Shown: positions 11,475 to 44,422 of the stretch, in pieces | How positions within the stretch are numbered: position 1 is the stretch's first letter | Layout of the letters: every line of letters begins with the position of its first letter | Source of the DNA: Caballeronia udeis | Lineage (GTDB): Bacteria > Pseudomonadota > Gammaproteobacteria > Burkholderiales > Burkholderiaceae | DNA length: 64,000 nt | Direction of reading: 5' to 3' | NCBI RefSeq assembly: GCF_001544555.2 | Contig: NZ_FCOK02000002.1 | Coordinates: 124,001-188,000, forward strand | Position numbers and translations under genes: made by a program | Notes under the pieces: generated by a model | Database searches by the model: none | What the model was told of the DNA's origin: nothing | Seen by the model: the letters and a program-made list of their open reading frames with translations, nothing else

Positions 11475-13952
11475 ATGACAACTCGCGCGAACAGCTGTGT
11501 CATCGAAAGCGATGCGGTCGCATCATTCCCGGACATACTGTCCACCGAAGCGGTGGATTTCATCGCGGCGCTGCATCGCGAATTCGAGCAATCGCGTCAG
11601 CACGTTCTGCACTATCGCAAGGAGCGATCCGACCATCGGCTGCATGGAGGCAGCTTCGAATTCCTATCGAGCACCGCGGGCATACGCAACGATCCGGACT
11701 GGCGCGTGCGCGTAGCCCCCGACGATCTGATCGACCGGCGCGTGGAGATCGCAGGTCCGGCGGAGAACCGGAAGATCGTCATCAATGCGCTCAACGCTCA
11801 TGCTCAGGTGTGGGTGGCCGATCTGGAAGACGCGATGTCACCCACCTGGCACAACGCTTTAGCGAGCCAGCGCAACCTGATGGATGCGGTCAAAGGGGAC
11901 ATTGCCTACCTTGATCCGAGCGGCAAGCAATACAGGCTCGAAGGCAGCACGACGGCGATCGTGGTCAGGCCACGCGGCTGGCATTTGTCCGAGCAGCATG
12001 TGCTTGTTGATGGACGCGCCGTATCGGCTAGTCTGGTCGATTTCGGCCTGTATTTCTTTCATTGTGCCCGCAGGCAAATCGAGCGCGGCAGCGGCCCCTA
12101 TTTCTATTTGCCCAAGCTGGAGAACCACGTCGATGCGCAGCTCTGGAACAACGTATTCGAATTCGCGCAGGACTGGGTTGGCATCCCACGGGGCAGCATC
12201 CGGGCGACAGTGCTTATCGAGCACATTGGCGCTGCTTTCGAAATGGACGAGATACTGCATGCTCTCGGCCCTCACGCCGCTGGACTGACGGCTGGACGCT
12301 GGGATTATCTGTTCAGTATTGCGAAGGAGTTTAGGCGCCGAGCGGACTTCGTCTTTCCAGACCGTGCGGAACTGACGATGGGGCTGCCGTTCATGCGCGC
12401 CTATACCGAGTTGCTGATCCGTACCTGCCATCGACGCGGCACGCACGCCCTGGGCGGCGTCGCTACGCAGATTCCGGACCGGCACGACATGCAAGCTCGA
12501 AACCGTGCGGTCGAGGCCGTGCGCCGCGACAAGGAGCGCGAGGCTGTCGAGGGTTTCGACGGCACCTGGGTGGTTCACCCCGACCTGGTCCCGGTGTGTC
12601 ACGCCGCCTTTGACCGGGTACTTTGCGGGCGAGCGCATCAGATCAGCCGCTTGCACGGCAAGGTCGAGACAACGGCAGCGGACCTGATGGCCGCCGATCG
12701 TCTTGATGGTCAAATCACCGAACACGGCTTGCGGTCCAACATCGCGGTGTCGATCCGCTACCTGGAAGCGTGGTTGCGCGGTCATGGATCGGTCAGGCTG
12801 TTCGGCCTGATGGAAGGCACAGCGACTGTCGAGATTGCCCGTTCGCAGATCTGGCAGTGGTTGCACCACGGCGTGCATTTGCATGATGGCCGCAGGGTGA
12901 CGCGCGAACTGGTGCGCGCCATGGTCGCCGACGAGATAGATCGATATCGCGCAGAATCAACGCAAACGCAGACCGGACACGACATTGAACGGGCCAGGGC
13001 TTTGTTTGAAGAAGTGGCCATGAACGAGGACTTTCCTGAATTCCTGACCATCCCGGGTTATGTGCTGTTATGTCCACCGCACGTGCTTGATACGGACCCC
13101 GCCCAATCGACATCGGCCAGGGAAACCGTGTTGGCGCTCCCATGCAGCAGCGGCATGTTCACGCATTTGCAGCTTAAGCCACGCGTTGTGTTTTCCTTTG
13201 GTTTCATGGGCTGGTCAGCGTGGTTGATCGAACACGCCGTCTCGCATGCGGCGTTGATCCGGGACCATGCGACCGGGTTCGTTCCCATCGGTCTCGAGAT
13301 TGCTTATCTGCATCCATCGACGTTCTTCGATTGCGAGTCGCTGAGCATCACCACGCGGATCAGGACCTGGAACCCGAAACGATTCCATACCCTGCAGGAC
13401 GTGGAGGTGCGGCTTGCGAACGAACATGGTGTGTCGGTCGCTCGCGTGTTCATGCAGGAGGTGTGCGTTCGGATCCAGTCGATTGAAACACTTGCGGCAG
13501 CGCCGGGACGGGTGGCCGGAGATCTCGCGAAGCTGTTGCTCGACTGTCCCGACGATATCGACGAGCGCCCCGTGCTGCTCAATCGCGGCGTCAAACGAGT
13601 GCCGGAGAACGCCGAAGCCATTGCTGAGTACCGGCATGAGTTCGTTGTCCATCGTCACGGATGCGAAGTGGCCGATCAATGGTATTCCGAGCATGTATGC
13701 GATTACATCGGCGATAGCCGCGAGGCCATGGTGTTCCTGCTACTGGACAAACATCCGGAACTGCTCGCGGGTCTCGCTCAGCGTATAGAGCGTTTGAGTA
13801 TCGGTTTGCGCCGGCCCTTCATGCTTTTCGACCGAGGCCAGGTCGTGACCACGGCTTATCGCGTGGGCGCCGAAATTCATTTCGTCCATCAGTTGCTTAC
13901 CGCATCCGGTGCCGACGCCGGTGATGCGGCCGAAGTGTTCCTGTCGCCGTGA
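11475..13952 (+). CDS. Malate synthase A homologue fused to a C-terminal hotdog-like region
   Basis: An 825-residue protein. Residues 1 to about 532 align along their full length with AceB-type malate synthase: RPRGWHLSEQHV, GPYFYLPKLENH, TVLIEH (Glu249), AGRWDYLFS (Asp277, metal ligand), FDGTWVVHP and SQIWQWLHHG, ending FLTIPGYVLL where AceB ends. The catalytic-base Asp of the MEDAAT motif (Asp447 in E. coli AceB) is replaced: the sequence reads MEGTAT, with Gly448. Residues about 533-825 are an added region whose strand-helix pattern (for example FHTLQDVEVRLANE and RPFMLFDRGQVVTTAY) suggests one or two hotdog folds, as in acyl thioesterases and dehydratases. It is the first gene of the operon. 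An ordinary glyoxylate-shunt role is unlikely. A GTG at 11457 is an alternative start. Confidence 0.82.
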   Translation: MTTRANSCVIESDAVASFPDILSTEAVDFIAALHREFEQSRQHVLHYRKERSDHRLHGGSFEFLSSTAGIRNDPDWRVRVAPDDLIDRRVEIAGPAENRKIVINALNAHAQVWVADLEDAMSPTWHNALASQRNLMDAVKGDIAYLDPSGKQYRLEGSTTAIVVRPRGWHLSEQHVLVDGRAVSASLVDFGLYFFHCARRQIERGSGPYFYLPKLENHVDAQLWNNVFEFAQDWVGIPRGSIRATVLIEHIGAAFEMDEILHALGPHAAGLTAGRWDYLFSIAKEFRRRADFVFPDRAELTMGLPFMRAYTELLIRTCHRRGTHALGGVATQIPDRHDMQARNRAVEAVRRDKEREAVEGFDGTWVVHPDLVPVCHAAFDRVLCGRAHQISRLHGKVETTAADLMAADRLDGQITEHGLRSNIAVSIRYLEAWLRGHGSVRLFGLMEGTATVEIARSQIWQWLHHGVHLHDGRRVTRELVRAMVADEIDRYRAESTQTQTGHDIERARALFEEVAMNEDFPEFLTIPGYVLLCPPHVLDTDPAQSTSARETVLALPCSSGMFTHLQLKPRVVFSFGFMGWSAWLIEHAVSHAALIRDHATGFVPIGLEIAYLHPSTFFDCESLSITTRIRTWNPKRFHTLQDVEVRLANEHGVSVARVFMQEVCVRIQSIETLAAAPGRVAGDLAKLLLDCPDDIDERPVLLNRGVKRVPENAEAIAEYRHEFVVHRHGCEVADQWYSEHVCDYIGDSREAMVFLLLDKHPELLAGLAQRIERLSIGLRRPFMLFDRGQVVTTAYRVGAEIHFVHQLLTASGADAGDAAEVFLSP

Positions 13953-13986
13953 CATCGACGTGCATCGACGCCAAAAGAGGTTGACC

Positions 13987-14250
13987 ATGACGTTCCTGTT
14001 CTCCGGTTCCCTGCTCCGGTATGTCGGTTATCGGCGGCAGATTATTTATGAAGCAAGCACGATCGACGCGGCCTTGCGCGTGTTGTTCGCCGAGTATCCG
14101 GAACTTGAAGGATTGCTAATGAATCCGGATAAGACGCTGAAACGTACGATGCGTCTCGCGATCAACAACGAAGTGATTCACAGCGATCTGACCCGGCCGC
14201 TCTCGGCAGGCGATTCGGTCGAGATCATGACCGCTATCTCCGGCGGTTAA
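13987..14250 (+). CDS. MoaD/ThiS-like sulfur carrier protein
   Basis: An 87-residue beta-grasp protein ending in TAISGG. A C-terminal Gly-Gly is adenylated by a ThiF/MoeB-type E1 enzyme and converted to a thiocarboxylate that donates sulfur. The matching E1-rhodanese fusion is the last gene of the same operon (19850-20980). Because Gly-Gly is already at the end, no JAMM protease is needed to expose it, and none is present. A GAGG ribosome site precedes the ATG. The gene lies among acyl-processing genes rather than molybdopterin or thiamine genes, which points to a dedicated biosynthetic carrier. Confidence 0.85.
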   Translation: MTFLFSGSLLRYVGYRRQIIYEASTIDAALRVLFAEYPELEGLLMNPDKTLKRTMRLAINNEVIHSDLTRPLSAGDSVEIMTAISGG

Positions 14251-14314
14251 CCCACTGACTCGCGACTGACTCGCAAGCCTGCCGCAGCCACGGCCAACGA
14301 AAGGAGAATGCTCA

Positions 14315-14554
14315 ATGTCCCTCGATACCCGGCTTCGCTCGGTATTCAACACGGTGCTGGAACTGGACAAGACGCTGCCCGATTCGGCACTGCGTTATCA
14401 AGAGACGCCAGGCTGGGATTCGCTCGGCGCGGTGTTGCTGATCTCGTCCATCGAAGAGGAGTTCAAGGTTGAGATCAATACCGGTCAGGCGTTGAACATG
14501 GATACGTTCAGCGGCGCGGCGCAGTTGCTCCGCGAGCTCGGGGTGCGGGATTGA
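14315..14554 (+). CDS. Acyl carrier protein
   Basis: A 79-residue carrier protein with the phosphopantetheine site GWDSLGAV (Ser36) and the following hydrophobic helix LLISSIEEEFKVEI. A strong AAGGAG lies before the ATG. It probably carries the acyl intermediate handled by the LuxE-like, InhA-like and FabG-like enzymes encoded next. It is distinct from housekeeping AcpP, whose site is normally DSLDTVEL. Confidence 0.93.
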   Translation: MSLDTRLRSVFNTVLELDKTLPDSALRYQETPGWDSLGAVLLISSIEEEFKVEINTGQALNMDTFSGAAQLLRELGVRD

Positions 14555-14567
14555 GCGGGCAATCGTC

Positions 14568-15626
14568 ATGAACGGTTCGCCGACAAGCCAGAGCGCGCGC
14601 GAGTCCGCGCTGTTGCCGCAGATGGTCGAACTGATCGAGCATCATCGGCGCGCGTGTCCTGCGTACGCTCGTGTGCTCGATGCAATCGGTCACTCGTCAG
14701 GCCGCCGCTATGCGCAAACCCGGGAACTGCCGTGGCTGCCTGTGCGCCTTTTCAAGGAGCACGCGCTGATCAGCACCGGCCGCGAACAAGTGGCGGTGCT
14801 GACGTCGTCCGGTACGACCGGTGCGAACGTCAGCCGGATCGCGCTGGACCGTGACGCCGCTGAGCATCAGCGAGGTTTGCTCACTGCGACGCTGGCAACG
14901 GTGCTCGGTCCCCGACGTCTGCCGTTGCTCATTGTCGACTCGCCGTCGGCGGTGCGCCGCGAACGCTCGACCATACGCGGAGCGACCGTGCTCGGCGTGA
15001 TGAACGTCGGTCGCGAGCATGCCTTTGCGCTGGATGACGAGCAGGGCATCGACGCCACCGCCGTCGAGAATTTTCTGCAACGCCACGGCCACGCAACGTT
15101 CCTGATCTTCGGCTTCACGTCTCTCGTCTGGACACGGTTCCATGCATTCGCACGATCACGCGGATTCGATCTGGCCAACGCGGTCCTGTTGCACACAGGC
15201 GGCTGGAAGAAGCTCGCTGACCTGGCGGTATCGCCGCGAGAATTCCGCGCGAGCTTTCTCGAAGCAACCGGCCTTCGACGATGCCACAACTTCTACGGAA
15301 TGGTCGAGCAGGGCGGCACGATCCATATTGAATCGGCATCGGGCGACGGCTTTTATTGCCCCGATTTCGCCGATGTCATCATCCGTGATCCGCAGACCTG
15401 GGAGGAGGCCCCGGTCGGCGCGGAAGGGGTTATCGAAGTGTTGAGCGCCGCGCCGCGTGCGCATCCGGGGCATGTGTTGCTGACCGAAGACCGGGGCGTG
15501 GTGCATGGCATCGACGATGGTGAGTGGCCGGGCAAACGCTTCTCCGTGCTCGGCAGGCTCGCGCGCGCCGAACCTCGGGGATGCGCGGACACACTGCCCG
15601 AAACCGCCTACGGAGCGCAATCATGA
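14568..15626 (+). CDS. LuxE-family acyl-protein synthetase (adenylate-forming)
   Basis: A 352-residue protein of the LuxE/PaaK-like group. The adenylate-binding loop is SSGTTGANVSRIALD near residue 83, LPWLPVRLFKEHAL typical of LuxE precedes it, and HNFYGMVEQGGTIH plus the VLLTEDRG region follow. In luminous bacteria LuxE activates a fatty acid as acyl-AMP and passes it to LuxC for reduction to an aldehyde; a LuxC homologue is encoded at 18587-19824. Its stop overlaps the next start as ATGA. Substrate unknown. Confidence 0.88.
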   Translation: MNGSPTSQSARESALLPQMVELIEHHRRACPAYARVLDAIGHSSGRRYAQTRELPWLPVRLFKEHALISTGREQVAVLTSSGTTGANVSRIALDRDAAEHQRGLLTATLATVLGPRRLPLLIVDSPSAVRRERSTIRGATVLGVMNVGREHAFALDDEQGIDATAVENFLQRHGHATFLIFGFTSLVWTRFHAFARSRGFDLANAVLLHTGGWKKLADLAVSPREFRASFLEATGLRRCHNFYGMVEQGGTIHIESASGDGFYCPDFADVIIRDPQTWEEAPVGAEGVIEVLSAAPRAHPGHVLLTEDRGVVHGIDDGEWPGKRFSVLGRLARAEPRGCADTLPETAYGAQS

Positions 15627-16390
15627 ATGGTTTGCTCGAAGGGCGGTGTTTGCTTATCACCGGCGTCATCAACCATGCATCGATCGCATTTGCGGTCGCA
15701 AAGCTCGCTCAGGAGCAGGGCGCGGAGATCGTGCTCACTGGCCACGGCCGGCTGCACATGGTCGAGGACGCGGCTAGCCGCTTGCCGCGCCCGCCGCCGG
15801 TTGTCGAACTCGATGTCACGCAAAACGAACAACTCGCCACGCTGGCCGAGCGCCTGCGGGTTCATGTGCCGCGGCTGGACGGTGTGCTGCACTCGATCGC
15901 GTTTGCGCCGCGTGGGGCCGTTAGCGGGGAGTTCCTGGCGACGAGCTGGGCCGATGTATCGACGACCTTGCAGGTATCGGCGTATTCGCTGCAGGCGCTG
16001 ACCAACGCGGTGCTGCCATTGATGGACGCAGGAGGGTCGATCGTGGGCCTGGATTTCGATGCCTCCATGACATGGCCCGCCTACGACTGGATGGGCGTCG
16101 CCAAGGCGGCACTGGAATCGAGCGCGCGTTACCTCTCTCGCGATCTGGGCGCGCGCGGGATACGCGTCAATCTGGTCGCGGCAGGTCCTTTGCGTACCGC
16201 CGCCTCTCACGGCGAGCCGCGTTTCACCGATATCGCTGCCGCCTGGCGAGCCCGCGCGCCACTCGGCTGGAATCCCTCCGACGCCAGCGGCGTCGCCCGC
16301 ACGTGCGTGGCGTTGCTGTCGGACTGGCTCCCTGCCACCACCGGCGAAATCGTGCATGCCGATGGTGGTTTCCACACGATAGGAATCTGA
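15623..16390 (+). CDS. InhA-type enoyl-ACP reductase
   Basis: A 255-residue SDR of the FabI/InhA branch. The N-terminus (GLLEGRCLLITGVINHASIA) has the family's altered nucleotide loop. The active site is InhA-like: Phe145 in GLDFDAS, Tyr154 and Lys161 in YDWMGVAKAALES, at the spacing of InhA Phe149, Tyr158 and Lys165. NLVAAGPLRT and LLSDWLPATTGEI also read like the mycobacterial enzyme rather than E. coli FabI. It would reduce a 2-enoyl thioester with NADH. It starts inside the LuxE-like stop codon (ATGA) and lies 24 bases before a FabG-like gene. The actinobacterial likeness is recalled from known sequences, not searched. Confidence 0.88.
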   Translation: MNGLLEGRCLLITGVINHASIAFAVAKLAQEQGAEIVLTGHGRLHMVEDAASRLPRPPPVVELDVTQNEQLATLAERLRVHVPRLDGVLHSIAFAPRGAVSGEFLATSWADVSTTLQVSAYSLQALTNAVLPLMDAGGSIVGLDFDASMTWPAYDWMGVAKAALESSARYLSRDLGARGIRVNLVAAGPLRTAASHGEPRFTDIAAAWRARAPLGWNPSDASGVARTCVALLSDWLPATTGEIVHADGGFHTIGI

Positions 16391-16414
16391 CATGGCGCGG
16401 TTCCGGGGGTATCG

Positions 16415-17167
16415 ATGAATACGGCGAGTTTCAGCAATCGTATTGCCGTGGTGATCGGCGGCACGCGTGGCATTGGTCAGGCGAGTGCGCGGCTGCTGGC
16501 CGCGGCGGGAGCGACCGTGATACTCACCGGCACCGATCAGGCGAAAGCCGAACGCGAGGCGCAGCAGCTTGCTGCCGAGTACGGTGTGAGCGCAACGGGG
16601 CGGGAACTGGATCTAAGCGACTACGCGTCGATCAGCGTGACCATCAAGTCGATTGCCGCCGAGCACGGCGCGATCGACGCGCTGGTGCTCAGCGCGGGTC
16701 TCATGCAGAGCACGCCGCTCGGAATGACCCCGGAGCCGGTTGCACGCCATCTGCTCGACGTCAATCTGCTGGGTGCTATCGAAGTGCTGCAGGCGAGCGC
16801 GAAAGTGATGATGCGGCGGCGTCGCGGCGCGATTGTCTTGCTCGCATCCATAGCGGGCGAGCGCGGTGCGCCGGGCCAGGCGGTCTACGCGGCGACCAAG
16901 GCCGGCATTGCAGCGCTGGCGCGCTCGGCGGCCAAGGAACTGGGACCACTCGGCATTCGGGTGAATGCGGTGGCGCCCGGTTTGATCGATACCGATCTGC
17001 TGGCGAATCTCCCCAACGATGTCATCGCCACGCGTCGCGCCCAGACGGCGTTGCGCAGGCTTGGCACAGCGACTGAGGTGGCGACGACAATCCGCTTCCT
17101 GCTCAGCGACGAAGCGTCTTTTATCACCGGGCAAGTGCTGGGCGTAGATGGAGGCCTGATCTTATGA
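16415..17167 (+). CDS. FabG-type 3-oxoacyl-ACP reductase (SDR)
   Basis: A 250-residue classical SDR: GGTRGIG nucleotide loop at residues 14-20, SAGLM in place of the usual NNAG, a Ser in LLASIAGE, and Tyr-Lys in YAATKAG, with GVDGGLIL at the end. It probably reduces a 3-oxoacyl chain on the operon's acyl carrier protein. Its stop overlaps the ATG of the AMP-binding gene (ATGA), so translation is coupled. Substrate length and type cannot be judged. Confidence 0.88.
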   Translation: MNTASFSNRIAVVIGGTRGIGQASARLLAAAGATVILTGTDQAKAEREAQQLAAEYGVSATGRELDLSDYASISVTIKSIAAEHGAIDALVLSAGLMQSTPLGMTPEPVARHLLDVNLLGAIEVLQASAKVMMRRRRGAIVLLASIAGERGAPGQAVYAATKAGIAALARSAAKELGPLGIRVNAVAPGLIDTDLLANLPNDVIATRRAQTALRRLGTATEVATTIRFLLSDEASFITGQVLGVDGGLIL

Positions 17168-18590
17168 ACACATTCGGCGTCAATGCTTGCCTGATCGATG
17201 CGGCCAGCGGCCTGAGCTTGCGCGGGCGCGAGTTCGCCGCGCGAATTCACGCGATGGAAGACGAACTGCATGCGCTGCCGCCCGGCCTGCTCTTTTTACC
17301 CGCGCCATGCCATGGACCGTCGATACCGTGTGCCGCTATCTCGCCGCGTTTCGCCAGGGCCGGGCGCTCGCGTTGCTTGATCCGGGCATGGAGCCGGACA
17401 CGCTGACGGAACTGATTGCGCGATTCGAACCGGCGGGCCTGTGGCAGCCTGGAATCGAAACGCCTGCGCCCGAGGGTTATCGCCATGTCGCGCATGGGTG
17501 GATCAGGCAGGCGAGCGCGGTGGCCGTGCATCCCGATGTGGCCTTGCTGCTGACCACCTCCGGCTCGACCGGCGCGGCCCGCATGGTGCGCCTGTCACGG
17601 CAGGGTGTACTCGCCAACGCCGCTGCGATCGTGCGAGCGCTGGACATCACCGGCGCGGAAATCGCACCGGCCAGTCTGCCGTTCTACCTGGGCTACGGCT
17701 TGTCGGTGCTCAACAGCCATCTGCTGGCGGGCGCTACTGTGGTGGTGAATGCGTATCCGGTGATCGGCCCGGATTTCTGGGCATGTGTCGACCACTACGG
17801 AGCGACTTCCTTCGCTGCGGTGTCGCATACCTATGAGCTGCTCGCGCGTTTGCGATGGACACCGTCGGCACATCCCGGCCTGCGCACGATGACACAATCC
17901 GGCAGTCGCATGCGGCCTGAACTGATTGCACAACTTGTCCGTGGCATCGGCCGGTCGGAAGGACGTTTCTATCTCATGTACGGGCAAACGGAAGCAACGG
18001 CCCGGATGGCGGTTCTGCCGGCGCACCGCATTGGCGAGAAGTGCGGTTCGGTCGGCGTGGCCGTGCCGGGCTCAGCGTTGTCTATTCGTATTGAATCCGG
18101 TGAGGAGACCCGTGAGCCGGACGTCGTCGGTGAAGTTATCTTCCGCGGACCAGGCGTCATGATGGGTTACGCCGATACCGCCGCCGATCTCGCCCGTGGC
18201 GACGATTCCCGCGGCGTGCTGCACACAGGGGATATCGGGCGCTTCGACCAGGAGGGGTATCTCTATCTCGAGGGCCGTCTCAAGCGGATTGCCAAGCTAT
18301 TCGGACAACGTATCAACCTGGATGCAGTCGAACGCGTGGCTATTGAAGCGGGTGCTGAAGGCGTGACGATCGCGGTTTCGCGCAACGACGAAGCGATCGT
18401 GTTGTGGTGCGAAGGCGAGGCCGAAGCGGCGCGGCTGGAACTTATTTCGCGCAGCGTCGCGGAACGACTCGGCGTGAACCGGCATGGTGTTGTTGCACGC
18501 GCAATCGATAAATTGCCGCTGCTGCGCAACGGCAAGATCGATTACCGGGCGCTGGTTCGTGCGGCCATTGAAGACAAGGCACCGACATGA
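17164..18590 (+). pseudogene. AMP-binding acyl ligase with a frameshift near its 5' end
   Basis: The first frame starts at the ATG at 17164 (MNTFGVNACLIDAASG) and reads to about 17300; the rest of the protein continues in the -1 frame from about 17298 (PWTVDTVCRYLAAFRQG) to 18590. Restoring one T in the CTTTTTA run at 17291-17297 gives a continuous reading frame of 475 residues, normal for a small ligase. The remainder is well kept: P-loop TSGSTGAARM, YGQTEATARM, LHTGDIGRF, and the catalytic Lys in LRNGKIDY. It would activate an acid as acyl-AMP. A product from ATG 17307 would lack the N-terminus and has no ribosome site. It could be a real lesion or a homopolymer error. Confidence 0.8.
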
Positions 18591-19824
18591 TCCGGCCGCT
18601 GTTCCCGATGGGCGCGCCGCTTGAAGCATCGGCGTTGCTTGAGTCGATGCTTCAAGCGACGCGCGACCCAGAGTCCGGCCTGGCTCTGCAAGTCGGCGAT
18701 GAACGCATGCTCGATTTCCTCGATGCAGTCGGCCAGCGCCTGCGTGTACCGGCGCTGGCACGACGCCATCCGGAACTGGGACCACTCGGCGCGTACCTTC
18801 GTCGCGGTCACCTTGGTTCGGAACTGGCGCGGCTTGATACCGGGGATCGCACGCTGCGTTTTCCTCAAGGGCTGGTTTTTCACATCGCGCCCGGCAATGC
18901 CGATACGGTGTTCGTCTACTCCTGGGCCTTGTCCGCGTTGGCCGGAAATCGCAATGTCGTGCGGGTATCGGATCGGGGTGGAGAAGCCACCGAGGCCGTG
19001 CTCGCCGCGTTGGCGCAGAGTCTGGATGAGGCCGATCCCGTGGTGGCGAAGACGCAGCGGATCGTGAGCTACGACCATCGTGACGAGGCTGCGACGTCGG
19101 CACTTTCGGCCGCCTGTGACTTGCGAGTGTTGTGAGGCGGCGATCGCGCCATTGACGATATCCGTCATTCACCGCTGCGGCCATCGGCGCGGGATCTCAC
19201 GTTTGCGAACCGGTCTTCGTTTGCGGTGATCCGCGCGACGGCTTTTCTGCTGGCCGACGCGCCTCAGAGAAAACAGGCGGTAGATGCATTTCATTCGGAT
19301 GCCTACTTATTTGGTCAGCAGCATGCGCGTCTCCCGGAACGATTTTCTGGATTGGCACGGAACCGGATGTAGCGGACGCGCAAGTTGCGTTCGCGGCATT
19401 GCTGGTCCAAACGGTAGAGGTCCGGGGGCCGCGCACAGACGCTGCGATGGCTATCCAGAAACATGTTGCCGCTTACGGTCTGGCTGCGGAAGGTGTCGCC
19501 GACAACGTGCGTTTTATCGGCAACGAGATCGCTTTCGTGCGGCTCGCCACGCCTGTCCGCCTCCCGCGCCGCTGGCTTGGAACCGGGACGTTTCCGCATC
19601 TGCGCCTTGAATCGCTCGACGAGCTGATACCCCTGTTGCAACGTCAGGATCAGACGCTGACGTATTTCGGTTTCACTGTCGACGAGATGGTTTCGTTCGC
19701 CCGGAAAGCATCCAGACGGGGCATCGATCGCATCATGCCGATGGGACGTGGGCTCGAATTCTCCACGATGTGGGACGGCTACGACCTCCTGCGCGAGTTC
19801 ACCCGCCTGGTCACGGTGAGTTGA
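18587..19824 (+). pseudogene. LuxC-like acyl reductase with a nonsense codon and a frameshift
   Basis: Reading begins at ATG 18587 (MIRPLFPMGAPLEAS), overlapping the ligase stop, and follows the LuxC family: LVFHIAPGNADTVFVYSW, then DLRVL. At 19133-19135 a TGA replaces the Trp codon of the conserved WGGD. The same frame continues GGDRAIDDIRHSPLRPSARD to LFGQQ near 19320. There one base is missing, and the active-site stretch ACASPGTIFWIG and the C-terminus continue in the next frame to 19824. Adding one base gives 413 codons, normal for the family. LuxC reduces a fatty-acyl thioester to an aldehyde; as printed, no functional enzyme can be made. Confidence 0.88.
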
Positions 19825-19849
19825 TTCTGATTCGCTCATAAGGAGCACG

Positions 19850-20980
19850 ATGATGATTAAGGCGATAGTCGAACTGTCCCCGGAACAGGCGCACGAACGC
19901 CAGCGGTCGGGCGCATTGATGGTGGACGTGCGTGAGGACGGCGAGCGCGCGGCCGGAATGGCCGAGGGGGCGATGGGGGTCAGCAAGGGCCGGCTGGAGG
20001 CTGAACCGGGGGCATGGTTGCCTGAGCTTGACGGTGAGATCCTGCTGATCTGCGGGGTGGGCGCACGTTCGCTGCAGTGTGCGAGGTTGCTGCAATCGCG
20101 GGGTTATACACACGTTGCCTCGGTCAGCGGTGGCACTACACGATGGAAAGCAGCCGGTTTGCCGATGAGCGCGGCTACCGCCGACGCTGATTTTCTCGAA
20201 CGATATTCCCGCCACTTACGCCTCGCCGAAGTGGGACTGGACGGCCAACGAAAGCTCGCGGCCGCGCGGGTGGCGCTGATCAGCGCGGGCGGGCTGGGTT
20301 CGCCGGCGGCGCTCTACCTGGCTGCGGCAGGGATCGGCCATATCACGCTTATCGACGATGATCTCGTCGATCGCAGCAATCTGCAGCGCCAGGTGCTGCA
20401 TCGCGATGTCGATATCGGCACGCCCAAGGTCGAGTCCGGTTGCCGGACCTTGGCGGCGCTCAATCCTCATGTGGTGATCGAACCGCAACGCACGCGGTTG
20501 CTCGCGAGTAATGTCGAGGCGTTGATTCGCGGGCACGATGTCGTGATCGACGGCTCCGACAATTTTTCCACGCGCTATCTGGCCAACGATGCGTGCGTGC
20601 GGCTGGGTCTGCCGATGGTCTACGGCGCGGTGCAAGGTTTCGAAGGGCAGGTCAGCGTGTTCTGGCCGGCGCGGGAGGGTGGCAGTTGCTATCGGTGCCT
20701 GTTTCCGGAACCGCCGCCGGCGGCATTCGCGCCAAACTGCGCCGAAGCGGGTGTGCTTGGCGTGCTGCCGGGGGTGATCGGGTTGTTGCAGGCGACCGAG
20801 GCGATCAAGTTGATTTTGGGTATTGGTGAGTCGCTGTCCGGTACCTTGCTGCAGTTCGACGCGCTGGGAATGCGGTTTAACCGCTTGCGCTTGCTGCGAG
20901 ACCCCGCTTGCCCACGTTGCGGAAATGGTGTGACGGCTGGCGATTATGTGGATGTGCCGACGGCTTGCGGGGTGGGGTGA
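19850..20980 (+). CDS. Rhodanese-ThiF/MoeB fusion (sulfur carrier activating enzyme)
   Basis: A 376-residue two-domain protein. Residues 1 to about 110 are a rhodanese with active-site Cys68 in CGVGARS. Residues about 122-376 are an E1-like adenylyltransferase: SAGGLGSP nucleotide loop, DDDLVDRSNLQRQ, the Asp of DGSDNFSTRY, and a zinc site CYRC plus CPRC. It should adenylate the C-terminal Gly-Gly of the sulfur carrier at 13987-14250 and supply persulfide sulfur. The domain order is the reverse of MoeZ/MOCS3, where ThiF comes first. An AAGGAGC ribosome site lies before the ATG. It is the last gene of the operon. Confidence 0.9.
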   Translation: MMIKAIVELSPEQAHERQRSGALMVDVREDGERAAGMAEGAMGVSKGRLEAEPGAWLPELDGEILLICGVGARSLQCARLLQSRGYTHVASVSGGTTRWKAAGLPMSAATADADFLERYSRHLRLAEVGLDGQRKLAAARVALISAGGLGSPAALYLAAAGIGHITLIDDDLVDRSNLQRQVLHRDVDIGTPKVESGCRTLAALNPHVVIEPQRTRLLASNVEALIRGHDVVIDGSDNFSTRYLANDACVRLGLPMVYGAVQGFEGQVSVFWPAREGGSCYRCLFPEPPPAAFAPNCAEAGVLGVLPGVIGLLQATEAIKLILGIGESLSGTLLQFDALGMRFNRLRLLRDPACPRCGNGVTAGDYVDVPTACGVG

Positions 20981-21020
20981 GGGCTCAGTTTGCGTGCAAC
21001 CCAAAATGCCTTCCACAATG

Positions 21021-27822: not shown

Positions 27823-28148
27823 GTGCGGATTCCGGTTGTAATGTTGTGCGTCAGGTTTCTGAAGGGAACTCTTGCGCGCCGCCGCCCGGGCGTTCGCGAG
27901 AAAGCGGGAAAGCGTACTTCGATTGCTGCGACGCGGCAAGTTGTCAGCATTTATGTCTTTCAATTCGCTTGTGAGGCGGGCTTGGCAGCGTAAATACCGC
28001 TCCCGGCCGGCAATTCTAGCGCCTGGGTGACACCAGGGTGATGTTTGCACCCGGGTGCCGCCAGAACGATCCGGCCTTGGAAGCGCCTGTTTAAGGGGTT
28101 TTCCGGCAGTTGCCTATTCTCAGGCGGCCCATTAAACTAAGGCTCTCC

Positions 28149-28245
28149 AGCCCTGCGTAACTGGCGACAAGGATCTTCGGATCCAAGGTGGATTAACCCA
28201 CCGGGAAGCGCAGGGTGTCGTTTTGCCGTTCGCCTGGGCAGCTGA
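28149..28245 (+). ncRNA. ZTP (pfl) riboswitch controlling glyA
   Basis: All parts of the ZTP/pfl motif are present in order. P1 pairs CCCTGCG (28151-28157) with CGCAGGG (28209-28215). CTGGCG (28161-28166) follows, then a GGATC-TTCG-GATCC hairpin (28171-28184), then the core GGTGG-ATTAAC-CCACCGGGAAGC. The 3' element GCCGTTCGCCTGGGC (28225-28239) supplies the CGCC that pairs with GGCG of the upstream loop as the pseudoknot. ZTP (AICAR triphosphate) signals a shortage of 10-formyl-tetrahydrofolate, and glyA supplies one-carbon units, which fits. It lies about 160 bases before the glyA start. Confidence 0.92.
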
Positions 28246-28407
28246 GATCCGCACGCGCTCGTTGCGTTGCCGGTGGCTGTCCGTCTCGCGTAAACGGAGC
28301 TTATCTCTTCCGCCTCGCTTGGGACCCATCGTGCTTCTCGCTCTTGCGGCGTAGCGCATATGTACACGCGCGATCCGGTCAACTGACACCCATTCAACGG
28401 AAAACGT
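28246..28407 (+). promoter_or_regulatory. Remaining glyA leader
   Basis: The region from the riboswitch to glyA should contain the expression platform. No clear terminator hairpin with a T run is visible, so control at the translation level or by Rho is possible. The opposite side, 27823-28148, must hold the promoters of glyA and of the divergent ydfG-like gene, but no convincing hexamers were found. Confidence 0.4.
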
Positions 28408-29655
28408 ATGTTTGATAAAGCCCAAAGTACCATCGCCCAAGTCGATCCGGAATTGTTTGCGGCGATCGAGCAGGAAAACCGCCGGCAGGAAGATCACATT
28501 GAACTGATCGCGTCGGAAAACTACACGAGCCCGGCTGTCATGGCCGCCCAAGGCTCGCAACTCACGAATAAATACGCGGAAGGCTACCCGGGCAAGCGCT
28601 ATTACGGCGGTTGCGAGTACGTCGATATTGTCGAGCAACTGGCGATCGACCGCGTGAAGCAATTGTTCGGCGCGGAAGCCGCCAACGTGCAGCCGAATTC
28701 CGGCTCGCAAGCCAATCAGGGCGTGTTCTTCGCCATGCTCAAGCCCGGCGACACCATCATGGGCATGAGCCTGGCTGAAGGCGGCCACCTCACGCACGGT
28801 TCGCCGGTGAACATGTCCGGCAAGTGGTTCAACGTGGTCAGCTACGGCCTGAACGAAGCCGAAGACATTGACTACGACAAAACCGAAGAACTGGCTAAGG
28901 AACACAAGCCGAAGCTGATCGTGGCGGGCGCGTCCGCGTTCGCGCTGAAGATCGATTTCGAACGGCTGTCGAAGATCGCAAAGAGCGTCGGCGCGTATTT
29001 CATGGTCGACATGGCGCATTACGCCGGTCTGATCGCAGCCGGTGTTTATCCGAACCCGGTGCCGTTCGCTGACTTCGTCACGACCACAACCCACAAGAGC
29101 CTGCGTGGCCCGCGCGGTGGCGTGATCCTGATGAAAGCCGAGTTCGAGAAACAGATCAACTCGGCTATTTTCCCGGGCATCCAGGGTGGCCCGCTCATGC
29201 ACGTCATTGCCGGTAAGGCCGTGGCGTTCAAGGAAGCGTTGTCGCCGGAATTCAAGGCGTACCAGCAACAGGTCGCGGAGAACGCGCGGGTGCTGGCCGA
29301 GACCCTGGTGAAGCGCGGCTTGCGGATTGTTTCGGGACGTACCGAAAGCCACGTGATGCTGGTCGACCTGCGCGCCAAGCACATCACCGGCAAGGCAGCG
29401 GAAGCGGCGCTCGGCAAGGCTCATATCACCGTGAACAAGAACGCGATTCCGAACGATCCGGAAAAGCCGTTCGTCACCAGCGGCGTACGTCTCGGCTCGC
29501 CGGCCATGACCACGCGCGGTTTCGGCGTGGCGGAGGCGGAGCAGGTGGGTAACCTGATTGCCGACGTGCTGGACGCGCCGGAAGACGAAGCCAATCTCGA
29601 GCGCGTACGCGCGAAGGTCGCCGCGTTGACCAAGCAATTCCCGGTCTACGGCTAA
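28408..29655 (+). CDS. glyA: Serine hydroxymethyltransferase
   Basis: A 415-residue PLP enzyme that interconverts serine and glycine while loading tetrahydrofolate with a one-carbon unit. The PLP Lys is in [14 protein letters not shown] near residue 229; [30 protein letters not shown] and [11 protein letters not shown] are all intact. Length is typical. It is preceded by a ZTP riboswitch and followed after three bases by nrdR, the common order in betaproteobacteria. Confidence 0.98.
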
Positions 29656-43221: not shown

Positions 43222-43561
43222 TTTCTTATGCAAACGCTTCAATCGCATTAGTATAGCCAAGCTCGTCAAATTCTGCGCTTTACCACCAATATCCCTTTGA
43301 TCTTTAATGATTAAGATCATGATCCCGGGCGACAAAATTTGACTCAACTCGGCAATTATTTTCATTTTGCTTTCAAAAACTGGCCGTTGATTTCTTACGT
43401 CCAATCTTCGATAAGGCAGAATACGCAATTCAGCGAATTCCTGCTGATATCCGCTTCTATCGTTGCGATAGCGCGTCAGTGCTGACCGCGCCATTCGCCG
43501 CTATTCTGATGCTCTCCTGCCCTTGTTTTTGCGAGTTTCGCTTACCTTCCGCGTGCCCATC
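43222..43561. promoter_or_regulatory. AT-rich divergent promoter region of pdxH and tcdA
   Basis: A gap of 340 bases, clearly richer in A and T than its surroundings. It contains a 7-bp inverted repeat, TGATCTT (43298-43304) and AAGATCA (43313-43319), separated by eight bases, which could be an operator. No other element was recognised. Confidence 0.4.
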
Positions 43562-44422
43562 ATGACCGCTTTTCCTGCCTCTGCCGATGCTTTGAATTTT
43601 AACTCCGCTACGCCGGAGATTGAAGCCGCCGACCGCGCCCGGCGCTTCGGCGGGGTGGCACGCTTATACGGTCCGGCCGGGCTCGCGGCGTTCGAACGCG
43701 CGCACGTCGCGGTGATCGGAATTGGCGGTGTGGGCTCGTGGGCGGTCGAAGCGCTGGCGCGCAATGCGATCGGGCGCCTGACGCTGATCGACCTCGACAA
43801 CGTGGCCGAAAGCAATACGAACCGCCAGGTGCACGCGCTGGACGGCAACTACGGCAAGCCCAAGGTGAGCGCGATGGCCGAGCGCATCCACCTGATCGAT
43901 CCGGCGTGCTGCGTGGAGCAGGTCGAGGATTTTATCGAGCCCGCGAATTTCGATTCGGTGCTGGGCGGCGGTTTCGATTTTGTGATCGATGCAATTGACA
44001 GCGTGCGTACGAAAACGGCGCTAATTGCGTGGTGTGTTGCGCACGAACAGCCATTGATCACCGTGGGGGGAGCGGGTGGGCAACTCGATCCGACGCGAAT
44101 TCGTATCGACGATCTGGCGCTCACGATCCAGGATCCGTTGCTTTCGAAGGTGCGCGGACAACTGCGTAAATTGCACGGTTTCCCGCGTGGACCGAAAGCG
44201 AAGTTCAAGGTGAGCGCGGTCTATTCCGACGAGCCGCTGATCTACCCCGAAGCGCCCGCTCGCGACGCCGGCGAGGCGGCTGCATCAGAAGAAACAGCGC
44301 CCGTTGCTACGGGACCGGTCGGACTGAACTGCGCGGGATTCGGATCAAGTGTCTGCGTGACGGCAAGTTTCGGATTCGCCGCTGCTGCTTATGTCTTAAG
44401 AGATATCGCGAAACGCGCTTAA
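43562..44422 (+). CDS. tcdA: tRNA threonylcarbamoyladenosine dehydratase
   Basis: A 286-residue E1-like enzyme that cyclises t6A37 to ct6A in tRNAs reading ANN codons. It has ARLYGPAGLAAFERAHVAVIG, the nucleotide loop IGGVGSWAVEALAR, DLDNVAESNTNRQ, and IDAIDSVRTKTALI. The C-terminus carries GLNCAGFGSSVCVTASFG. The start at 43562 (MTAFPAS) is chosen by family length. Unlike the ThiF domain at 19850-20980 there is no rhodanese and no sulfur carrier nearby, so sulfur transfer is not implied. Confidence 0.93.
   Translation: MTAFPASADALNFNSATPEIEAADRARRFGGVARLYGPAGLAAFERAHVAVIGIGGVGSWAVEALARNAIGRLTLIDLDNVAESNTNRQVHALDGNYGKPKVSAMAERIHLIDPACCVEQVEDFIEPANFDSVLGGGFDFVIDAIDSVRTKTALIAWCVAHEQPLITVGGAGGQLDPTRIRIDDLALTIQDPLLSKVRGQLRKLHGFPRGPKAKFKVSAVYSDEPLIYPEAPARDAGEAAASEETAPVATGPVGLNCAGFGSSVCVTASFGFAAAAYVLRDIAKRA

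Follow-up and report, generated by a model that had tools for sequence, protein, structure and literature searches.

A rare operon in Caballeronia udeis that may couple acyl-chain enzymes to a dedicated protein-thiocarboxylate sulfur carrier

RESULTS

A nine-gene operon on one strand

The 64-kb stretch of Caballeronia udeis DNA analysed here (the window) carries nine consecutive gene families, all on the + strand at 11475-20980, in the order malate-synthase-like protein with an extra domain, MoaD/ThiS-like carrier, acyl carrier protein (ACP), LuxE, InhA-type FabI, FabG, AMP ligase, LuxC and rhodanese-ThiF. The source genome is a 10.05-Mb draft in 242 contigs. The first-pass annotation of this DNA had named these families, and Pfam and NCBIfam back each of the nine names, weakly for LuxC in the window and well for its intact relative at another locus (L006). 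The intergenic gaps are at most 64 bases, as had been described, the largest separating the MoaD and ACP genes, but three ATGA overlaps are present (at 15623, 17164 and 18587) rather than the four that had been claimed. The features are as follows, with the first gene divided into its two parts.

11475..13064, +: gene 1, N-terminal part, a domain resembling malate synthase A but with the catalytic base missing (Gly 448; His 250), from TIGR01344 (682.7 bits, cut-off 594.5) and from alignments to malate synthases, both solved structures and canonical sequences
13065..13952, +: gene 1, C-terminal part, a double-hotdog domain with an invariant HxCExADQW, from an AlphaFold2 model (pLDDT 85.2) whose best solved folds are acyl-ACP thioesterases
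13987..14250, +: MoaD/ThiS-like carrier with a Gly-Gly end (PF02597, 42 bits, cut-off 22.5)
14315..14554, +: acyl carrier protein with a DSL motif (PF00550, 24.4 bits, cut-off 20.8)
14568..15626, +: LuxE-like acyl-protein synthetase (PF04443, E 8.2e-31; sole PDB match LuxE, 7xc6)
15623..16390, +: InhA-type enoyl reductase (NF005908, 385.6 bits, cut-off 299; best PDB match InhA)
16415..17167, +: FabG-like short-chain reductase (Pfam/NCBIfam)
17164..18590, +: AMP ligase, frameshifted near 17310 (PF00501, E 2.8e-33)
18587..19824, +: LuxC-like acyl reductase, broken (weak Pfam match on the first piece, E 4e-8; intact L006 relative, E 3.7e-25)
19850..20980, +: rhodanese-ThiF (MoeB-like) E1 and sulfurtransferase (PF00899, E 1e-77; PF00581, E 2.6e-10)

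The InhA-type FabI is a gene separate from the genome's other FabI (contig C66), to which it is 35% identical.

The operon is co-conserved but rare

The co-occurrence of the nine families across genomes, to which the first-pass annotation had looked for support, was found in ten loci with the same gene order: the window, eight other Burkholderiaceae and one Silvimonas. All nine families are present in 8 of the 10; FabG is absent from the other two, one of which is Silvimonas terrae (L039, Chitinibacteraceae), where the hotdog domain is encoded by a separate gene. Pairwise Nei-Gojobori ratios of nonsynonymous to synonymous substitution rates (dN/dS) lie between 0.065 and 0.213 for each gene (five pairs, four genomes), although those with dS >1, for several genes in two pairs with L010, are rough. 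The recurrence of the order together with the low dN/dS suggests that the set is more than a chance assembly. No description of a pathway with this gene set was found in a literature that included few subscription papers, in line with the first-pass annotation, and judged from its sequence the co-conserved operon appears to couple acyl-chain enzymes with a dedicated carrier/E1-rhodanese pair in a way for which we found no published account.

The operon is rare and patchily spread among a few soil bacteria. The hotdog domain was detected in 4 of 58 genomes of the window's own genus (the window's included), in 5/144 of the genus of P. haematera and in 3/199 of the genus of one Streptomyces genome; across the family an alignment query found it in 7/398 genomes (five fused, two free-standing), and across the order a single-sequence query, which is less sensitive than the alignment query, found it in 1 of 399, namely the C. 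udeis genome itself. A plasmid collection of 72,556 records contains 80 that match the fused protein, none of them over at least 80% of its length.

The upstream flank, on the M23/LysM peptidase side, is common to the window, L006, L074 and a locus of Burkholderia sp. S171 (L012) that retains only a remnant of the operon, and the downstream flank (tRNA-Lys and a TolA-binding gene) is common to the window, L006 and L012, the L074 stretch stopping short of it. The remaining operon loci have different neighbours. Because the spread is patchy and the neighbourhoods are unlike, the distribution suggests horizontal transfer of the operon. Tandem repeats of the tRNA-Lys, considered as an island mark, were not found: no stretch of at least 18 tRNA-Lys bases recurs exactly elsewhere in the window. 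In L006 (20050-20787) and L012 (10997-11488) an AbiEii-type nucleotidyltransferase gene, fuller in L006, separates the operon, or what is left of it, from the tRNA-Lys/Tol side.

The carrier and its E1 keep the features of a sulfur-transfer pair

The Gly-Gly tail of the carrier, the CxxC pairs of the E1 and the rhodanese Cys (in CxxGxRS) are each found in 10 of 10 operon loci, and with a Gly-Gly tail, a ThiF E1 and a rhodanese Cys all present the two proteins would be equipped as a sulfur-transfer pair. The first-pass annotation had allowed that they might be the strain's only molybdopterin or thiamine pair, which is not so: the genome has four further ThiS-family matches, one of them weak, and two further ThiF-family genes above the cut-off, one of 277 residues scoring 250.8 bits. 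The operon carrier and E1 are additional to these and not housekeeping genes. A tblastn comparison of the operon MoaD with L060-L062, three other loci of the ThiS family, gives no match at E 0.001. At 43523-44422 (+) the window encodes a further ThiF-family protein with a partial PF00899 match.

On the acyl side, the ACP Ser (DSL) and a C-terminal Cys of LuxE (RGC) are likewise conserved in 10/10 loci, and the LuxC QAAC Cys motif is intact in all nine other loci and disrupted in the window; the LuxE and LuxC Cys residues are presumably those that become acylated. LuxE, LuxC, ACP, FabG and FabI would be enough to make an aldehyde, and the retention of the LuxE and LuxC motifs is compatible with a sulfur-free product, a short acyl aldehyde or acid, in whose synthesis MoaD would serve as a ubiquitin-like or regulatory partner, or as an acyl acceptor of the hotdog domain, with the E1 merely charging it. 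The second NCBIfam match of MoaD, below the cut-off, is indeed the modifier SAMP1. However, the rhodanese Cys of the E1, kept in every locus, would be needless in a sulfur-free modifier pathway, and we consider this explanation rather unlikely.

A malate-synthase-like domain without its base

Residues ~1-531 of the gene 1 product are malate-synthase-like and are followed by ~290 residues to which Pfam assigns no family at E 0.001. The catalytic base of these enzymes is reported to be Asp 447 in malate synthase A and Asp 631 in malate synthase G, and the Asp631Asn protein has no measurable activity left (PMC3112382). At the equivalent position (window residue 448) Gly is present in 9 of 9 aligned operon proteins and in the second piece of the Silvimonas protein, giving 10/10 copies (L012 is without the region), and in 26 of 26 fused proteins among those listed, some of which are the same as operon copies. 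The base of malate synthase A is therefore missing, while Asp occupies the position in 7/7 canonical proteins and in both of the solved structures found as matches. Residue 250, beside an Mg ligand, is His in 11/11 operon-type rows and Thr in 7/7 canonical rows. The Mg ligands (Glu, Asp; window residues 249 and 277) and the activating Arg (165/167) are retained, taking their identities in malate synthase A to be those given by the alignment and by what is generally known of the enzyme.

Since the essential base has been lost, Asp to Gly, the N-terminal domain is probably not a malate synthase; with the Mg ligands and Arg retained, binding of Mg and a 2-oxoacid is probable, but not the usual enolisation of acetyl-coenzyme A (acetyl-CoA). 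The first-pass call of a malate synthase homologue thus holds for the family score, which exceeds the cut-off, and not for a protein acting as malate synthase, and the public records in which the fused protein is called, for example, 'malate synthase A' probably misname it. The genome has a further malate synthase of 532 residues.

The C-terminal domain is a double hotdog with its own motif

The AlphaFold2 model of the C-terminal part of gene 1 has the double-hotdog fold of FatA/FatB. The best solved folds are acyl-ACP thioesterases, with hydratase/dehydratase folds lower at Z 16-17, in a structure search by VIA-align that does not exclude structures outside its list. Public records label relatives as acyl-CoA thioesterases, and the domain could accordingly be an ordinary acyl thioesterase, or the dehydratase of a FabG-dehydratase-FabI cycle, with the nearness of MoaD reflecting a shared pathway and nothing more. 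The site argues otherwise: the thioesterase HVNN motif is not seen in the family, which has HxCExADQW in its stead, a motif found in 120 of 120 free-standing relatives among those listed. Identity to FatA/FatB and LnmK is 9-13% in the rows shown, PF01643 is absent from the Pfam matches at E 1 for 18 hotdog members, and a profile comparison (hhalign) with two bacterial acyl-ACP thioesterases, one of them partial, gives no match (probability 0.1%), a figure that is weak alone. Relatives elsewhere, moreover, adjoin acyl-CoA dehydrogenases and MoaD, not FabG. On balance we regard a plain thioesterase or dehydratase as improbable. We gave preference to the hotdog fold over a weak Pfam match to MbnB_TglH_ChrH (18.8 bits, cut-off 25).

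MoaD and the hotdog domain recur as a pair

A MoaD-like Gly-Gly protein lies near the hotdog domain in all 24 loci examined, comprising the 10 operons, 10 loci of Streptomyces/Saccharothrix, 2 of Chloroflexi and 2 of another genus in the window's family. The small Gly-Gly open reading frame (ORF) is at most 2.6 kb from the hotdog in 23 of them; in the 24th, L051, MoaD was matched through tblastn and Pfam. A later, divergent locus (L104, genome G893) also has a small Gly-Gly ORF, a putative MoaD, near the hotdog. Most of the pairs adjoin acyl-activating or acyl-CoA dehydrogenase genes, and the neighbourhoods differ. The order in Streptomyces L050 (7919-15345) is AMP ligase, MoaD, hotdog, acyl-CoA dehydrogenase, ACP and a second acyl-CoA dehydrogenase, a layout that the ORFs of the other Streptomyces/Saccharothrix loci (L045-L055) resemble; in Chloroflexi it is MoaD-like protein, hotdog, acyl-CoA dehydrogenase; and at L076 (9625-11990) and L077 (9624-11989), in the window's family, it is MoaD, acyl-CoA dehydrogenase, hotdog. 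From these sequences MoaD-hotdog appears to be a recurring module of Burkholderiaceae, Silvimonas, Streptomyces/Saccharothrix and Chloroflexi, and MoaD, the partner common to all of these settings, offers the best clue to the function of the hotdog domain.

Other genes accompany the pair at single loci or groups of loci. An MFS transporter and a desaturase-like protein are encoded nearby in the L045-L055 clusters, e.g. L050; L045 has a ThiF-rhodanese gene of its own; and a predicted metal-dependent hydrolase gene adjoins the row of three at L076. Three Streptomyces clusters (L048, L052 and L054) have a second InhA-type FabI inside or beside them, the genome having another elsewhere, and this second FabI adjoins an alpha/beta-hydrolase gene (from Pfam for L048 and L052). 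In a FabI tree these three copies stand apart from other Streptomyces copies. Descent of the operon FabI from them was considered and dropped, the tree being unrooted, of modest support and tying the operon to neither group.

The copy in the window is broken

The operon copy of C. udeis is broken. Aligned with the intact L006 protein, residues 1-48 of the AMP ligase are in the 17164 frame and residues 48-473 in another, and because the N-terminus of the relatives fits the first frame and the remainder a different one, the gene is frameshifted near 17310. LuxC is interrupted twice, by an in-frame TGA (19133-19135) and by a change of frame near 19330, and is not a single open gene. A working nine-gene unit in this strain, as the first-pass annotation implied, is thus not supported, and 7 of the 9 genes are open.

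These three separate breaks in two genes suggest that the operon is a non-functional relic in this genome, left by a lost pathway and no longer a trait of the strain. In the nucleotide loop of the E1 the first Gly of GAGGLGSP is Ser in the window only, being Gly in the other nine loci. In a sister genome (G250) the E1 gene is split by two inserted reading frames, one an IstB-type gene and the other an ORF of 504 residues whose transposase match is weak and below the cut-off, an insertion that by its likeness to IS21 elements would be of the IS21 type. Gene 1 is reduced to about its first 318 codons at the corresponding site of Burkholderia sp. S171, where window 12429-21015 has no counterpart. 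On the other side, the sequencing reads behind the breaks cannot be checked for this draft, seven genes are still open, and the LuxC pieces keep a dN/dS of 0.11-0.17 against L006, L074 and L010; since this ratio is still low, the breaks probably arose recently, with errors as the less likely cause. We judge it very probable that the copy is a relic, which is compatible with a functional operon elsewhere: every gene present is open in 6 of the 10 loci (L006, L007, L008, L009, L010 and L088). That leaves the window, L074, Silvimonas L039, whose malate-synthase-like gene is in two frames, and L087, in which an early in-frame stop in the ligase is perhaps bypassed by a later start.

Elsewhere in the window, a ZMP/ZTP riboswitch at 28147-28246 (+), 5' of a serine hydroxymethyltransferase gene (28408-29655), appears ordinary.

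DISCUSSION

Relation to known systems

By analogy, the nearest described system would be the thioacid cassette of thioplatensimycin and thioplatencin, which comprises the ligase PtmA3 and PtmU4 and has homologues in the clusters for PDTC, thioquinolobactin and yatakemycin (PMC6006322). There, as proposed for the operon, a carboxylate is activated and then receives sulfur from a carrier-protein thiocarboxylate, but the sulfur transferase is described as a type III CoA-transferase whose substrates are CoA esters (PMC6006322). In the operon the MoaD-linked enzyme instead has a hotdog fold. Pfam matches no CoA-transferase family to any of the nine genes, which leaves the ligase without a PtmU4-type two-domain type III enzyme beside it. 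Of the two cispentacin proteins compared, the ACP AmcB and the 2-oxoglutaryl-ACP ligase AmcH, each is distantly similar to its operon equivalent, the profile scores being far below the cut-offs (19.6 of 80 bits for the ACP, 106.2 of 370 bits for the ligase). The thioquinolobactin cluster reportedly also contains a dedicated carrier and a ThiF-rhodanese protein, QbsE and QbsC, in a small-molecule setting, and, unlike the operon, is not known to contain acyl-chain, LuxE/LuxC and malate-synthase-like genes.

Recruitment of a condensing enzyme of central metabolism to a Burkholderiaceae natural-product cluster has a parallel in the citrate-synthase-like BolR, which is proposed to make the citrate-derived starter of bolagladin, although fold and pathway are different (PMC7756342). 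The paulic-acid genes of paulomycin, for which a ligase, an ACP, an acyl-CoA dehydrogenase, a ThiF-like protein and a cysteine desulfurase are described, also place sulfur machinery beside ACP-bound acyl chemistry, but the authors report no carrier gene in the cluster and the text as accessible mentions no hotdog-MoaD pair; this parallel was considered and set aside (PMC4425429).

A proposed pathway

We suggest, tentatively and with a little less than even confidence, that the operon directs biosynthesis of a small sulfur-bearing acyl metabolite, in which the hotdog domain couples the MoaD thiocarboxylate to an ACP-bound acyl group, and that it is decaying in C. udeis. In such a pathway rhodanese-ThiF would adenylate the Gly-Gly tail of MoaD and swap AMP for sulfur to give the thiocarboxylate, as expected from its family. 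The AMP ligase would charge the ACP with a small carboxylic acid, whose oxidation level FabG and the InhA-type FabI would set. The double-hotdog domain may then bind the acyl-ACP and deliver the MoaD sulfur to the acyl group, giving a thioacid or thiol, a step that we propose because the MoaD-hotdog pairing recurs and because of the fold. LuxE and LuxC would reduce a carboxyl to an aldehyde. Lastly, and speculatively, the base-less malate-synthase-like domain might have given up the acetyl-CoA/glyoxylate reaction and instead bring its Mg/2-oxoacid pocket to a base-independent nucleophile, e.g. sulfur or a decarboxylating unit.

Several observations weigh against this proposal. Besides the broken state of the C. 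udeis copy, the operon has no ketosynthase (KS) gene, nor a dehydratase gene unless the hotdog is one, and no transporter or regulator is common to all loci in the flanks. The hotdog domain would be equally suited to hydrolysis or dehydration. The 24 loci with the MoaD-hotdog pair are not a random sample, because most were found in a single scan that used the fused protein as its query, and the rest in follow-ups to it, and the MoaD-like call is weak in both Chloroflexi loci (no Pfam family in L044; in L047 a score of 21.3 bits, short of the 22.5 cut-off).

A bolder extension of the sulfur-bearing pathway, which we think quite unlikely, is that MoaD and hotdog form a new, widely scattered sulfur-insertion module, in which the hotdog enzyme would hand the thiocarboxylate sulfur of MoaD on to an ACP-bound acyl chain through the invariant HxCE, and that the hotdog has been fused in the operon to a base-less malate synthase that joins a sulfur-bearing or decarboxylating partner to a 2-oxoacid. 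To our knowledge the malate synthase fold offers no example of such a joining reaction.

The window's own copy is the wrong one to express. Gene 1 encodes a protein that scores above a curated malate synthase cut-off in a clade that, as far as it was found, is entirely without the essential base. If the proposed pathway is true, it would be a second route, beside the PtmU4-type CoA-transferases, by which protein-borne sulfur enters small acyl molecules, and the MoaD-hotdog pair would be a handle with which to find such pathways in several phyla.

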